Shown here one piece after another: positions 13,106 to 17,890 of a DNA stretch of 33,784 nucleotides. Every line of letters starts with the position of its first letter. Within the stretch, counting starts at the first letter, position 1. Source of the stretch: Pirellulaceae bacterium (GTDB lineage Bacteria; Planctomycetota; Planctomycetia; Pirellulales; Pirellulaceae); contig JALSIV010000020.1 in assembly GCA_026989685.1 (NCBI GenBank), positions 1 through 33,784 on the forward strand. Direction: 5' to 3'. The notes beneath the pieces are model-generated. The model worked only from the letters and a program-made list of their open reading frames with translations. It was not told the DNA's origin and made no database searches. Made by a program: the position numbers and the translations under genes.

Positions 13106-13429
13106 TCCCCGCTTCACCGGGAACCGGCTCGTCCGGCTCCCGCATGCATAAACGAACCCGGCTCCCGCATATTGGCGGGGGTCGGGTTCCTTTTGTTACT
13201 GGGATCTTTTCGCCCTCGTTTCGCCAGATGATGAGGGCTGCGCAGGTTGCATGTTTTCGCTGATCGATCCATCTGCGCCGCCAATCGGACGATCCGGCCA
13301 AAAAGCCGGGAAATTGCTTAACTTGTCCGCCGCCAAGGCGTACGATTAACCGGCCTCGGTATGGCCCGCTTGAAACCGATTCGAGTGGATCGGTTCGGAA
13401 GCCGGTTTTTCAACTTGGTGGTAACGGCA
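13106..13429. other. groEL downstream intergenic region
   Basis: This 324-nt gap contains the groEL terminator (13154-13197) and two copies of CCGGCTCCCGCAT, one of which forms part of the terminator stem. The remainder before the 13430 start shows no recognised gene, RNA or clear promoter. Confidence 0.6.
13154..13197 (+). terminator. Strong Rho-independent terminator of groESL
   Basis: GAACCCGGCTCCCGC (13154-13168) pairs over 15 bp, with two G-U wobbles, with GCGGGGGTCGGGTTC (13175-13189) around the loop ATATTG. CTTTTGTT follows immediately. Confidence 0.9.
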
Positions 13430-14881
13430 ATGACGAATGTACCGAAGCGATCGTACCGATCGATGTTGAGGGCAGCCGTGCTGTGGATCAGTGCGGGTAG
13501 CTGGCTCGTGCATGGCACTCCCGCGGCCGAAGCGCAATCGCTATTGGACTGGTGGCGAGGTCGCACCAACGTGGTCAACGTCTACGTTCCTCCGGGAGCC
13601 GTCGTTGCCACGACACCGGTGCGGGCGACCACGGTCACCGCGGCTCGGCCGACAACCGTTTACACCCCTCCGATTACCACGGGAATGACCAGTCCGCCCG
13701 TCCTATTGACCACGCCGGTCCCGGCTGCCGCGGTTCCCGCCACGGCGCTGCCGACCACGGCAGTTCCGTCGACGACGGTCCCGGTCACCGGAGCGACCAC
13801 GGTGGCGCAAGGTTACACCGTGCAGTACCGCGTGCAGACTCGCTATCGCACTCGATGGGTGCAAGTTCCCGTCACGGTTTACCGTCCCGTGACGACCGTC
13901 GATCCTGTCACGGGAGCTCGCACGACGATGACGCAGCCGTGTCAGTCATACACTTGGCAGGTGCGGCGGGTGCCGGTGACGCAGTGGCGTCCGGTGCGAG
14001 TCCTCTACGGTCCGCCGCCGGCCGGTTCGATTCCCACGATCACGCTGCCGAGCACTGCTGCGACGACGGCTTATCCGGTAGCCGCGGGTTCAACGGCGGC
14101 GCCGTCCGCCGCCGGGTCGGTTCCCGCTGACGTCCCTTTCACGACGACTCCGGCGCCCTGGACGAGCGTTCCATCGCCGTCGGTTCCCTCGTTTCCATCC
14201 ACGACCGGCGCCGCGGCACCGGCACCGGCTCCCTCGGCCGTCCCGCCCAGCAGTGGCTCGGATCGTGCCGACCGCTCGCCGCGCATTTCTCCCGAAGAGG
14301 CTCAGCGGCTGAGCAAACCGCCGACTTCGGCGCCCGGTTCTTCCGGCGAGACCTCGTCGGGTGGTGGCGACACAAGTCGCAACGGCCGAGTCGATGATGC
14401 TCGTGCCGATGGCAATTCCCACGACGGTGGTGGGGGGCCCAGTCACGGCAGCGAGGCCGGCCCAGCGCTCGATCCTCCCGCCAACGCTCGACCGAGCACC
14501 GACTCGGCGGGCTTGCGTTCGCTGGGGCCGCCCCCCCATCTCAAGCCGATCCCGCGAGTTCCGGCTCGAGCCACCCAGCCGGTGCCGGCGACCCAACCGG
14601 ATCCCTCGATTCGTCCCCCGGCATCGCCTCCCGTGCGTCGCCCCGACGGTCTGGAAGAGCCGCCGCAGTTGTTGGATCCTCGTGACGCCCTGGTCACCCA
14701 TTCGTCGGTTACTCATCGGGTGATGCGGACGTCATGGCAATCGGGCAGAACCGAGACTGCGTCAGGTCGTCATTCCTCACCCTTGGCAACCGGTGGCTCA
14801 TCTCGGAAAGCCGCCACGCCGCAGCCAACGATTCGCCGTTACCGTTCGACCGGCTGGCGGCATGTCGAGCTGGGAGAGTAG
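13430..14881 (+). CDS. Secreted Pro/Thr/Val-rich protein
   Basis: A 483-residue protein with a signal peptide (basic start, hydrophobic MLRAAVLWISAGSWLV, likely cleavage after AEA at residue 35). The mature part starts with QSLLDWWRGRTNVVNVYVPPG, then long Thr/Val/Pro/Ala-rich stretches. One compact region, QYRVQTRYRTRWVQVPVTVY, contains alternating basic and aromatic residues and a Cys-containing TTMTQPCQSYTWQVRRVP. The last 200 residues are Pro/Ser/Gly/Asp-rich and look disordered. I do not recognise a catalytic domain; a cell-surface or periplasmic role is likely. The ATG at 13430 gives the signal peptide; in-frame starts at 13361 and at residue 12 are possible. Its 3' end overlaps the convergent ATPase gene by 43 nt. 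Confidence 0.7.
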   Translation: MTNVPKRSYRSMLRAAVLWISAGSWLVHGTPAAEAQSLLDWWRGRTNVVNVYVPPGAVVATTPVRATTVTAARPTTVYTPPITTGMTSPPVLLTTPVPAAAVPATALPTTAVPSTTVPVTGATTVAQGYTVQYRVQTRYRTRWVQVPVTVYRPVTTVDPVTGARTTMTQPCQSYTWQVRRVPVTQWRPVRVLYGPPPAGSIPTITLPSTAATTAYPVAAGSTAAPSAAGSVPADVPFTTTPAPWTSVPSPSVPSFPSTTGAAAPAPAPSAVPPSSGSDRADRSPRISPEEAQRLSKPPTSAPGSSGETSSGGGDTSRNGRVDDARADGNSHDGGGGPSHGSEAGPALDPPANARPSTDSAGLRSLGPPPHLKPIPRVPARATQPVPATQPDPSIRPPASPPVRRPDGLEEPPQLLDPRDALVTHSSVTHRVMRTSWQSGRTETASGRHSSPLATGGSSRKAATPQPTIRRYRSTGWRHVELGE

Positions 14882-15636
14882 TTGGAGGCGGCACGGGTTG
14901 GCGGTGCGGCGCATGTCCAGGCGCCCCACTTTCGCAGAGCCGGTGGCAGGGTGCGGGGATCGGGATGGCGGCCGTGGCGGGCTTCCCACCAGTCGTACAG
15001 GTCGAACAGCACGTCGCGGTAGTTGCCTCCATGGTGTCGGTAGAGTTGCTCCAGTAGACCCTCGGGTGGACGCAAGTGGGACGGTGACTGTTGCACTCGA
15101 GCGGCCACCAGTTTGCGCAGTTGCGCGAGGCTGGGCTCGAGCACGGCCAGCGTACTCCAGGGACCGATCGTGTGACTGGTGGCGATAGCGCGGTGGCGTT
15201 TGAGCTGGATGAGCCCGCCGCAGGCTCGCTGCTTCCAGCGGCTCCAGCGATCGAGTCCGTCAATCAGCCACACCGTCGGCCGTCGAGCCGCCGCGATCGC
15301 GCCGACCGCGCACCCGAAGGGCATCCGGTCGGCACACAGCCACTGGCTTTGCCACGTGGTTGTTCGCTGGCCAAGCATTCGCCCGAGCGCGGCCAACGCG
15401 GCCGTCTTGCCGCTGCCGTGAGGTCCAACGAGCTGCATGGGGCGACGGGCCTGTTGGAGCGACTCGAGCCACCGTGTAAGCTGCCGAGGCTTGAGACCGA
15501 CCGGTTCGGTCTGCCGAGGATCGATCCACGACGCGCTGAACGGATTGTCGCTCGCCCTGCGGGACTCGATCGTTGCGCCGGTACGTGGCGCCACGGGAAC
15601 GATGCGGCAGCGAGAAGTCGTGTGGGATCGGATCAT
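14839..15636 (-). CDS. P-loop ATPase, third gene of an unknown operon
   Basis: A 265-residue predicted AAA-type ATPase. The Walker A motif GPHGSGKT is at 71-78 and the Walker B motif VWLIDGLD at 122-129, with ATSH at 152-155 in a sensor-1-like position. The upstream NPFSASWIDP resembles the NPF segment that begins ExeA/ORC-like AAA domains. The C-terminal part (GNYRDVLFDLYDWWEARHG) is likely a helical lid. No DNA-binding, protease or membrane domain is seen. The ATG at 15636 overlaps the stop of the preceding gene in an ATGA junction, so translation should be coupled. Its partners are two beta-rich, arrestin-like proteins, so it may power remodelling of a membrane complex; that is inference only. 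Confidence 0.7.
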   Translation of the reverse strand: MIRSHTTSRCRIVPVAPRTGATIESRRASDNPFSASWIDPRQTEPVGLKPRQLTRWLESLQQARRPMQLVGPHGSGKTAALAALGRMLGQRTTTWQSQWLCADRMPFGCAVGAIAAARRPTVWLIDGLDRWSRWKQRACGGLIQLKRHRAIATSHTIGPWSTLAVLEPSLAQLRKLVAARVQQSPSHLRPPEGLLEQLYRHHGGNYRDVLFDLYDWWEARHGRHPDPRTLPPALRKWGAWTCAAPPTRAASNYSPSSTCRQPVER

Positions 15637-16064
15637 GCCGTGTCCGCCAGCGAAGTCAGGTCCTGTCCCGGCCCCACGACGGCTCGAGCCGTCCGCACGT
15701 TGCCCAGCCGGAAGACTTGCTCTTCGAGAAACTCGCGACCGCTTTTGAGAAACAGTCGGACGCGAGCACACCAGCGGATCTTCAGCAACACGCCGTCATA
15801 GCTGAGCGGAGTCAGCGGCAGTCGCAGCCGCATGCTTCTCATCTCGCGCAGGTCGCTCACTTCCGTCTGTCCCGGAACCCGCCGTTCGAATACGACGACC
15901 GATAGGTCGCTTTCTCCCTTGCCGATGGTGTACCACAACACCGACGCCTCAATGGCCGCGACCGCGTCAGGAGCAACCGCGTCGATCTGGTAGTGCCAGA
16001 CGATCTCTTGTCCCGGTCGATAGCTGCGGCGTCCGGGAAGACTGATGCTAATGAGCGGATCCAT
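15633..16064 (-). CDS. Small beta-rich protein, arrestin-like (hypothetical)
   Basis: A 143-residue protein without signal peptide or membrane segment. It begins MDPLISISLPGRRSYRPGQEIVWHYQID, the pattern of a beta-sandwich opening (a P-G-x-x-hydrophobic turn), and continues with alternating beta-strand-like segments (VLWYTIGKGESDLSVVVF, DGVLLKIRWCARVRLFLKSG). The layout recalls arrestin-like or immunoglobulin-like domains, but this is by eye and I cannot name the family. It overlaps the upstream membrane-protein gene by 17 nt and the downstream ATPase gene by 4 nt, so the three products are probably made in stoichiometry and act together. Confidence 0.65.
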   Translation of the reverse strand: MDPLISISLPGRRSYRPGQEIVWHYQIDAVAPDAVAAIEASVLWYTIGKGESDLSVVVFERRVPGQTEVSDLREMRSMRLRLPLTPLSYDGVLLKIRWCARVRLFLKSGREFLEEQVFRLGNVRTARAVVGPGQDLTSLADTA

Positions 16065-17103
16065 GAGCGGTGACAGAATTGGTTTCGGGAATCACGACCA
16101 TCGGGAAGGGATGTTCAAACGTGCCGCCTCCTCGCTCCAGCGTGCCGCGCACCACCAGTTTCCAGGTGATGGCGTTGTGAGGCGAATGGAACGAGTGCAT
16201 CATGCCTGCCGGGATGCGGGACGCCGTTTCGACCTCCAGCGGCTGGCCGCTGCGTAGTTCAACGGGGCGACGCTCAATGATCGTTTCATTGTAGACGACC
16301 TGCCGATCAAAACGGATGTCCGTTCCCTGATGGCAAGTGGTTTCCTCTTCGCAAACCAAATGCACGGCGAGCTCTTGCAGTCGCACACTGCCGCTTTGTG
16401 AAACGTAGCAAGTGAACGGCTGCCCCGTCTGCAGGGGCTGGTCGGAGATCTCCACCAGCGTCGGTCCGACTCGAGTCTGTCGAACCAGTTGCAAGATGAA
16501 GAAACGAATGGCCCATACGCCGATGGCCATGAAGGGAAGGATGGCGACGGCAGCCAGCGGAGTCGGTTGTCCCTGCCGGTATCCGACCCAGACCTCTCGG
16601 ATGAGAAACAGAGTCAGTGCATTCCAAACCAAGCAGAAGGACGTCGCCGCCAGCATTTCCCAGGCGCCGCTGTGGGACATGGGCAGGCGATAGGCGAGAC
16701 GGATCCCCGGACTGTTGGTGAGGTTGATGCCGCGAGGAATTCCCGGCAGGGCCGTTGCGTCATCATCGTGTTCGGGAAGTGCGGCGAGCTTGGCGGCGTT
16801 GTGAGCCAGCGCGGAGCGGCGTTCCCGGCTGGTGCGCATCTGCAACAGGGATACAGCCAGCCCCCGCCCGCCCAAAAGAATAAACGAGGTGACGACGAGC
16901 AGTACCAGCCAGCGGCCGCCCCCCAACTGCCACGGTGTCTGCTCGTCGAAGAAGGTCGGCGCAAACAGCAGGTAGATCAGCGATGAGAGGCCGAGTAGGA
17001 ACCAGGCGGCGAAAAACGCCGTCTCCCCCCACTGTCCGACTCGCCGTGCACTCGTGGTGCGCGAGCCCTGCTTCTTCACCCAAACGCGAAAACGTCTCGC
17101 CAC
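16048..17103 (-). CDS. Multi-TM protein with C-terminal beta domain
   Basis: A 351-residue membrane protein. Hydrophobic segments lie at about 28-48, 63-85, 148-170 and 180-205. A hydrophilic loop (about 90-145) contains LPEHDDDATALPGIP. The C-terminal 150 residues (SDQPLQTGQPFTCYVSQSG... to ITWKLVVRGTLERGG) look like a beta-sandwich, with the HSPHNAITWKLVV strand resembling arrestin-like domains that follow DUF3592-type membrane modules. Function is unknown. The start is GTG at 17103, preceded by AAGG six bases away. It is the first gene of the overlapping operon 17103-14839 and lies just downstream of the tandem 81-bp elements. Confidence 0.7.
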   Translation of the reverse strand: MARRFRVWVKKQGSRTTSARRVGQWGETAFFAAWFLLGLSSLIYLLFAPTFFDEQTPWQLGGGRWLVLLVVTSFILLGGRGLAVSLLQMRTSRERRSALAHNAAKLAALPEHDDDATALPGIPRGINLTNSPGIRLAYRLPMSHSGAWEMLAATSFCLVWNALTLFLIREVWVGYRQGQPTPLAAVAILPFMAIGVWAIRFFILQLVRQTRVGPTLVEISDQPLQTGQPFTCYVSQSGSVRLQELAVHLVCEEETTCHQGTDIRFDRQVVYNETIIERRPVELRSGQPLEVETASRIPAGMMHSFHSPHNAITWKLVVRGTLERGGGTFEHPFPMVVIPETNSVTAHGSAH

Positions 17104-17146: not shown

Positions 17147-17312
17147 TTAGAGCTTCTGACAAAACCCACCGCGCCGCCTCCCGGCCTCGGGCGTGTTGCC
17201 TGCAGCGTGGAGTTTTGTGACAGCCTCTTAGGCCCTGTAACAAAACCCGCCGCATCGGTACCCGGCCTCGGGCGTGTTGCTTGCAACATGGAGTTTTGTG
17301 ACAGCCTCTTAG
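17147..17312. repeat. Two tandem 81-bp inverted-repeat elements
   Basis: Units 17147-17227 and 17228-17308 are each exactly 81 bp, followed by a third TTAG (17309-17312). They are about 80% identical; the centre CCCGGCCTCGGGCGTGTTGC and the right end AGTTTTGTGACAGCCTC are exact. Within each unit the left end (CTGTAACAAAACCC in copy two) is the near inverse of the right end (CTGTCACAAAACTCC as reverse complement), so each folds into a long hairpin. TTAG flanks each copy as a target-site duplication would. They resemble small non-coding transposon derivatives (MITEs). They sit between the alpha-CTD gene and the arrestin-like operon. Confidence 0.8.
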
Positions 17313-17349: not shown

Positions 17350-17598
17350 TTACTCGAACCCGATTTTCGCTAGTGCCTTGTAGACTTCCTGCAGCGTCTT
17401 TTCGCCGAAGTTGGAGATGTTGAGCAATCGTTTCGGCTTCGTGTTGAGCAGGTCCTCCACCGTGAAGATGCCGTTTTCCTCAAGGCAGTTGGTGGTACGA
17501 ACCGGCAGACCGATCTCGGCGATGCTCAGCTTGAGCCGTTCACGCATCAGTCGCGCTTTTTCCTGAGCCGGATTCAGTGGAATGCGAGTGACCGCCAT
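17350..17598 (-). CDS. Stand-alone RNA polymerase alpha C-terminal domain protein
   Basis: An 82-residue protein consisting of an N-terminal helix (NPAQEKARLMRERLKLSIAEI) and an alpha-CTD fold: IGLPVRTTNCLEENGIFTV, then EDLLNTKPKRLLNISNFGEK and TLQEVYKALAKIGF. In RNA polymerase alpha the matching helix-hairpin-helix contacts UP elements and activators (compare the NFGRKSL type motif). There is no alpha N-terminal dimerisation domain, so this is not RpoA itself. The ATG at 17598 has a very strong ribosome binding site, GGGAGGGAG, and is far better than the in-frame start at 17778. It may bind DNA alone or compete with the genuine alpha-CTD (inference). Confidence 0.85.
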   Translation of the reverse strand: MAVTRIPLNPAQEKARLMRERLKLSIAEIGLPVRTTNCLEENGIFTVEDLLNTKPKRLLNISNFGEKTLQEVYKALAKIGFE

Positions 17599-17890
17599 GG
17601 GCTCCCTCCCTGATTCGCTATCGAGTCGTACAATGTGGCTGACCGAGCAGCCAGCGTGAGTGTTACCCGTCGGCAGACAGTATAGCGACAGGAAGGAAAA
17701 CGTCAGCCCCATTTTTGCCGCTCGGCCGACCCCGTACATGACGAGCGAGCCGAGGATGGTTATACTGATGATGTACATGCGGACAGATGACAGGTGCCTC
17801 TAGCAGAATTCGCAGATCGGCATTCCGGTTTCGGGCGTATGGCCCACGGCGCTCGCGTGCTGCTACGGGCTCTGAGGGAGGGCTCAACGG

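Follow-up and report, generated by a model that had tools for sequence, protein, structure and literature searches.

Three overlapping genes lie on the minus strand of a 33,784-nt stretch of DNA from a Pirellulaceae bacterium, the whole of which is referred to here as the window. They encode a membrane protein, a small beta-rich protein and a P-loop ATPase, which raises the question of what kind of system these proteins form. The initial annotation regarded the genes as one unit with no described counterpart and guessed at a membrane-associated remodelling or trafficking machine. We examined the composition, distribution and relatives of the three genes.

Gene layout and surroundings

The overlaps noted initially, 17 nt between the membrane-protein and small-protein genes and 4 nt between the small-protein and ATPase genes, were confirmed from the window coordinates (Table 1). 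The ATPase start is the ATG at 15636, with the 4-nt overlap that is present at 15 other loci too; the GTG at 15771 chosen by the ORF tool represents an N-terminal extension. The ATG of the small-protein gene matches the start of its closest homologue, at locus L032. Among related loci, the membrane/small-protein junction overlaps in 24 of 49 cases and the small-protein/ATPase junction in 28 of 52, with 4 nt being the commonest overlap at both (20 and 15 cases, respectively); the starts in this survey were picked by program, which took a later GTG for the window's own ATPase and so mis-scored that junction.

Table 1. Coordinates of the three genes and their features in the window
Feature	Residues	Position	Strand	Basis
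Four-TM membrane protein with a C-terminal arrestin C-type lobe; GTG start; lacks DUF3592	351 aa	16048..17103	-	homology and hydropathy
TM1, after basic N-terminus	29-47	16963..17019	-	hydropathy
TM2	66-84	16852..16908	-	hydropathy
TM3	150-168	16600..16656	-	hydropathy
TM4	186-204	16492..16548	-	hydropathy
Arrestin C-type lobe	about 213-341	16081..16467	-	alignment; homology to Arrestin_C half of L102, L093 and others
Small protein, separate arrestin N-type lobe ("beta protein"); ATG start	143 aa	15633..16064	-	profile, homology, model
AAA+ ATPase, clamp-loader/initiator type; ATG start	265 aa	14839..15636	-	model and motifs
NPF motif before AAA+ core, invariant in 49/49 sequences	31-33	15538..15546	-	alignment
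Walker A, GPHGSGKT	71-78	15403..15426	-	alignment
Walker B region, VWLIDGLD, with DG instead of DE	122-129	15250..15273	-	alignment
Candidate sensor-2 arginine	R207	15016..15018	-	R in 47/49 sequences

Several other elements adjoin the operon. A VYRPV-rich ORF on the plus strand (13361-14881) is convergent with the ATPase gene and overlaps it by 43 nt (14839-14881), unlike most other loci, where the related ORF has the operon's direction. Just upstream of the operon are two tandem 81-nt direct repeats (17147-17308) that are 83% identical. Their 22-nt core occurs in 51 copies in the genome, with 0 matches for a reversed-pattern control, and the repeats belong to an interspersed repeat family. 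Positions 17350-17778, between the operon and the UvrD gene, code for a small protein that carries the C-terminal domain of RNA polymerase alpha (E 7e-19); the corresponding block at several further loci also holds a related ORF.

The two arrestin lobes and the membrane anchor

None of the three window proteins gave more than a generic P-loop in direct scans against Pfam and NCBIfam. The small and membrane proteins matched no Pfam family, and thus not the Spo0M family, and stayed below the curated cut-offs of Arrestin_N (PF00339) and Arrestin_C (PF02752). A profile of 54 small-protein homologues was then compared with the PDB, and all 20 matches belonged to the arrestin clan, including ARRDC3, TXNIP, beta-arrestins and VPS26, each of them weak (E 0.009-0.55). 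The fold was modelled on L052, a natural fusion in which the membrane protein is followed by the N lobe, the order opposite to that of the single-chain relatives described below. The small-protein domain of this model (pLDDT about 95) has an arrestin-type beta-sandwich fold. Its best match is Vps26A of retromer/retriever (Z 12.5 over 112 residues), with Spo0M (PDB 5cl2; Z 12.0) and ARRDC3 (Z 11.8) following. The two-lobe part of the model was of low confidence and poor in the ArrC part, probably because the mixed rows of membrane and small proteins align badly there, and was left out as evidence.

The link between the two proteins comes from single-chain relatives elsewhere in the phylum. In these chains, the small-protein profile aligns to the N-terminal half and the membrane-protein profile to the C-terminal half, with one or two TM segments between the two arrestin halves. 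Their matches exceed the Pfam curated cut-offs, as in L102 (Arrestin_N 4e-14, Arrestin_C 9e-13), with similar values in others. Because both profiles meet in one chain, the small protein is taken to be the N lobe (ArrN) and the membrane protein's C-terminal domain the C lobe (ArrC) of one arrestin. By comparison with these one-chain ArrN-TM-TM-ArrC relatives, the window encodes both arrestin-clan lobes, as a split arrestin. The assignment is one of transitive homology, since the window proteins score under the cut-offs whereas their relatives score above them. A small-protein paralogue encoded elsewhere in the genome of the window does exceed the Arrestin_N cut-off, and none does in 14 control genomes. 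Spo0M matches, weak to moderate, were found in relatives only. The arrestin-like C-terminal domain that had been recognised in the membrane protein therefore corresponds to the Arrestin_C half of the single chains. The small protein, described initially as soluble and beta-rich, is indeed a beta protein, but its identity as the second arrestin lobe had been missed.

Four TM segments were predicted in the membrane protein, in agreement with its description as a multi-TM protein. Its strongly basic N-terminus indicates an N-in orientation and, by the positive-inside rule, a cytoplasmic C-terminal domain. The basic N-terminus and the four TM segments together predict that both arrestin lobes and the ATPase lie on the cytoplasmic side. 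Most homologues share with DUF3592 proteins (PF12158) a domain between TM1 and TM2, which is predicted to be on the outer side of the membrane where present. The window protein differs in having no domain match and a TM1-TM2 gap of 19 residues. In the alignment, the window protein and ten others have a short loop (gap of 7-26 residues versus 95-122), and DUF3592 has been lost in the window's lineage. No open-access paper joining DUF3592 with arrestin or Planctomycetes was found.

The ATPase

The P-loop ATPase of the initial annotation can be assigned more closely. Its model (pLDDT 85.6) shows an AAA+ fold with a lid and matches CTF18-RFC, a clamp-loader subunit (Z 13.8), ORC (Z 13.3) and RarA/MgsA (Z 12.2). 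The fold, Walker A and sensor-2 arginine are shared with AAA+ clamp loaders and initiators (RFC, ORC, RarA, DnaA, MuB). However, the family mostly has DG in place of DE, and it is encoded beside membrane arrestin genes rather than replication genes. The Walker A consensus is GPHGSGK(S/T), with the lysine in all 49 ATPase sequences, and an invariant histidine is found near the sensor-1 position. The Walker B aspartate is followed by glycine in 41 of 49 sequences, including that of the window, and DE occurs solely in the diverged modules L059, L061 and L062. Since most members have no glutamate at its usual place in Walker B, ATP hydrolysis may be weak. Compared with the nearest relative, L032 (ATPase gene at L032:7483-8259), the window's ATPase is only 40% identical, against 85% for the small protein and 72% for the membrane protein. 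The ATPase is diverging much faster than its two partner proteins, most extremely in the window's lineage.

Distribution and module types

The initial annotation had proposed a genome search for co-occurrence of the three families. Our distribution searches covered genomes of Planctomycetota. Among 146 genomes of the window's order, probably Pirellulales, homologues were found in 128 (membrane protein), 129 (small protein) and 129 (ATPase). All three occur together in 126 genomes, and none in 17 genomes from 11 genera, a class in which weak matches to other module types (in G005 and G103) are disregarded. The remaining three genomes have partial sets, one of which is a fragment at a contig edge. 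Fisher values for the co-occurrence range from 1e-19 to 1e-22, with phylogeny ignored. The three genes are all adjacent in 108 of the 126 complete genomes and not all adjacent in 18, some of which may reflect contig breaks. In G115 and G131, the ATPase gene is about 1.6 and 1 Mb distant on the same contig, so the set is retained as a whole even when its genes are far apart. The strict co-occurrence and co-absence, together with the conserved overlaps, support the earlier view of one functional three-component unit.

In a phylum sample of 292 genomes, the small protein was found in 43; every one of the 11 genomes from the order has it, as do 32 of the 281 others. A scan of genome contigs gave one relative only, L032, and the one-chain relatives had no match in plasmids or phages. 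The modules fall into three types. Type I, that of the window, has the architecture TM-(DUF3592)-TM-TM-TM-ArrC plus ArrN plus ATPase, in separate genes. Type II (L059, L061, L063, L065, L105) has TM-TM-ArrC plus ArrN plus ATPase, also in separate genes. Type III (L103, L104, L107-L109, L114-L117) combines the ATPase with a one-chain ArrN-TM-TM-ArrC, some with a C-terminal tail. The ATPase gene thus adjoins a one-chain arrestin at nine loci; five further loci (L106, L110-L113) have a single-chain arrestin and no recognised ATPase neighbour. The window's own genome (G000) carries a second, diverged module, L062 on contig C345, in which the membrane-protein and ArrN genes are convergent, with slight overlap, with an ATPase gene of the DE type, the usual Walker B. 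The neighbours mostly differ between module types, and outside the order the arrestin-ATPase pairing recurs in other architectures across the phylum. Genes for PIG-L type GlcNAc de-N-acetylases were seen near two related modules (L105:5335-6141 and L103:2427-3206).

Possible function and relation to known systems

We favour a reading, to which we give a probability of about 0.45, in which the module is a membrane-anchored split arrestin adaptor on the cytoplasmic face, with its assembly or client binding gated by the AAA+ ATPase. The four-TM protein would display the ArrC lobe in the cytoplasm, with DUF3592 on the outer side in most relatives. The soluble ArrN lobe would dock on ArrC, giving a two-lobed adaptor resembling arrestin or Vps26. 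The ATPase may then serve as a switch, driven by nucleotide, for loading, unloading or re-setting either the ArrN lobe or a membrane-protein client of the adaptor. The arrestin-clan homology of both lobes, the AAA+ fold, the strict co-occurrence and the one-chain forms beside a related ATPase gene speak for this reading; the low confidence of the two-lobe part of the fusion model, the DG of Walker B, the five one-chain loci with no recognised ATPase neighbour and the missing DUF3592 of the window protein speak against it.

Other readings were weighed against this adaptor. The module might be an envelope-signalling unit, with the TM bundle as envelope sensor and the split arrestin as a scaffold of the kind suggested for Spo0M; the ATPase would be a switch that binds nucleotide but hydrolyses little of it. 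The predicted outer position of DUF3592 in most homologues and the DG of Walker B are in line with this, and Spo0M has been reported to interact with cell-division and signalling proteins (PMC5325327). However, no conserved kinase, receptor or regulator gene lies beside the modules, and DUF3592 is dispensable, as the window and about ten others show, so that we consider signalling unlikely. A trafficking or membrane-remodelling machine, as first guessed, would be analogous to the retromer and arrestin adaptors of eukaryotes. Vps26 and alpha-arrestins are among the folds nearest to the small protein, and planctomycetes are reported to have elaborate membranes and coat-like proteins (PMC2799638). 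Shared fold is, however, no proof of function, and the module is missing from 17 of the 146 genomes, which leaves this reading improbable.

The neighbourhood of the operon suggests two further explanations. Genomes of the order show conserved synteny of the type I block with the UvrD gene, the PQQ-propeller gene and the VYRPV-rich gene. At many of these loci the ATPase gene has a related VYRPV-rich ORF downstream of it, and the module could be a platform for envelope or surface-protein biogenesis that serves this predicted secreted protein. The orientation of the ORF varies, though, being convergent in the window; the ORF is missing at other loci, and by family match it was not seen in modules of the wider phylum, which makes such a platform quite improbable. 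The same synteny would be expected if the three genes were mere hitchhikers in the block with no shared function. This explanation is largely refuted and very improbable, because the genes are kept when dispersed and are jointly absent in 17 genomes of 11 genera, and differently built modules that lack the syntenic block still pair the arrestin with the ATPase. An anti-phage defence system was also considered and rejected: PADLOC models gave P-loop matches only, with E of 0.001 or weaker.

The split arrestin adaptor can be compared with several known families. Proteins with Arrestin_N and Arrestin_C have been treated as eukaryotic, with Spo0M as a prokaryotic cousin (PMC2515105). Alpha- and beta-arrestins are homologous to the module in both lobes, and distant relatives of the module pass both cut-offs; the module differs in being bacterial and membrane-anchored, with the lobes on two genes in the window, and in being paired with an AAA+ ATPase. 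Spo0M of Bacillus subtilis (PF07070), a bacterial protein of the arrestin clan, is tied to sporulation and cell division (PMC2515105, PMC5325327), but it consists of one soluble chain, for which neither a membrane anchor nor an AAA+ partner has been reported. Vps26 acts with Vps35 and Vps29, neither of which is among the genes of the module. As the initial annotation had it, this composition matched no described system that could be found in Pfam, NCBIfam, PADLOC, the PDB or open-access papers, and a search of open-access papers for arrestins of bacteria or planctomycetes turned up nothing relevant.

As a tentative and still doubtful generalisation, the module may represent an undescribed class of bacterial machine, an integral-membrane and often split arrestin with a dedicated AAA+ ATPase, near-universal in the order, that would select or move membrane proteins as eukaryotic arrestin and retromer adaptors do. 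A bacterial module that spans nearly the whole order and combines both lobes, a membrane anchor and an ATPase offers a deletable system for probing the function of the arrestin fold in bacteria, in a phylum whose eukaryote-like membrane biology has long been debated.
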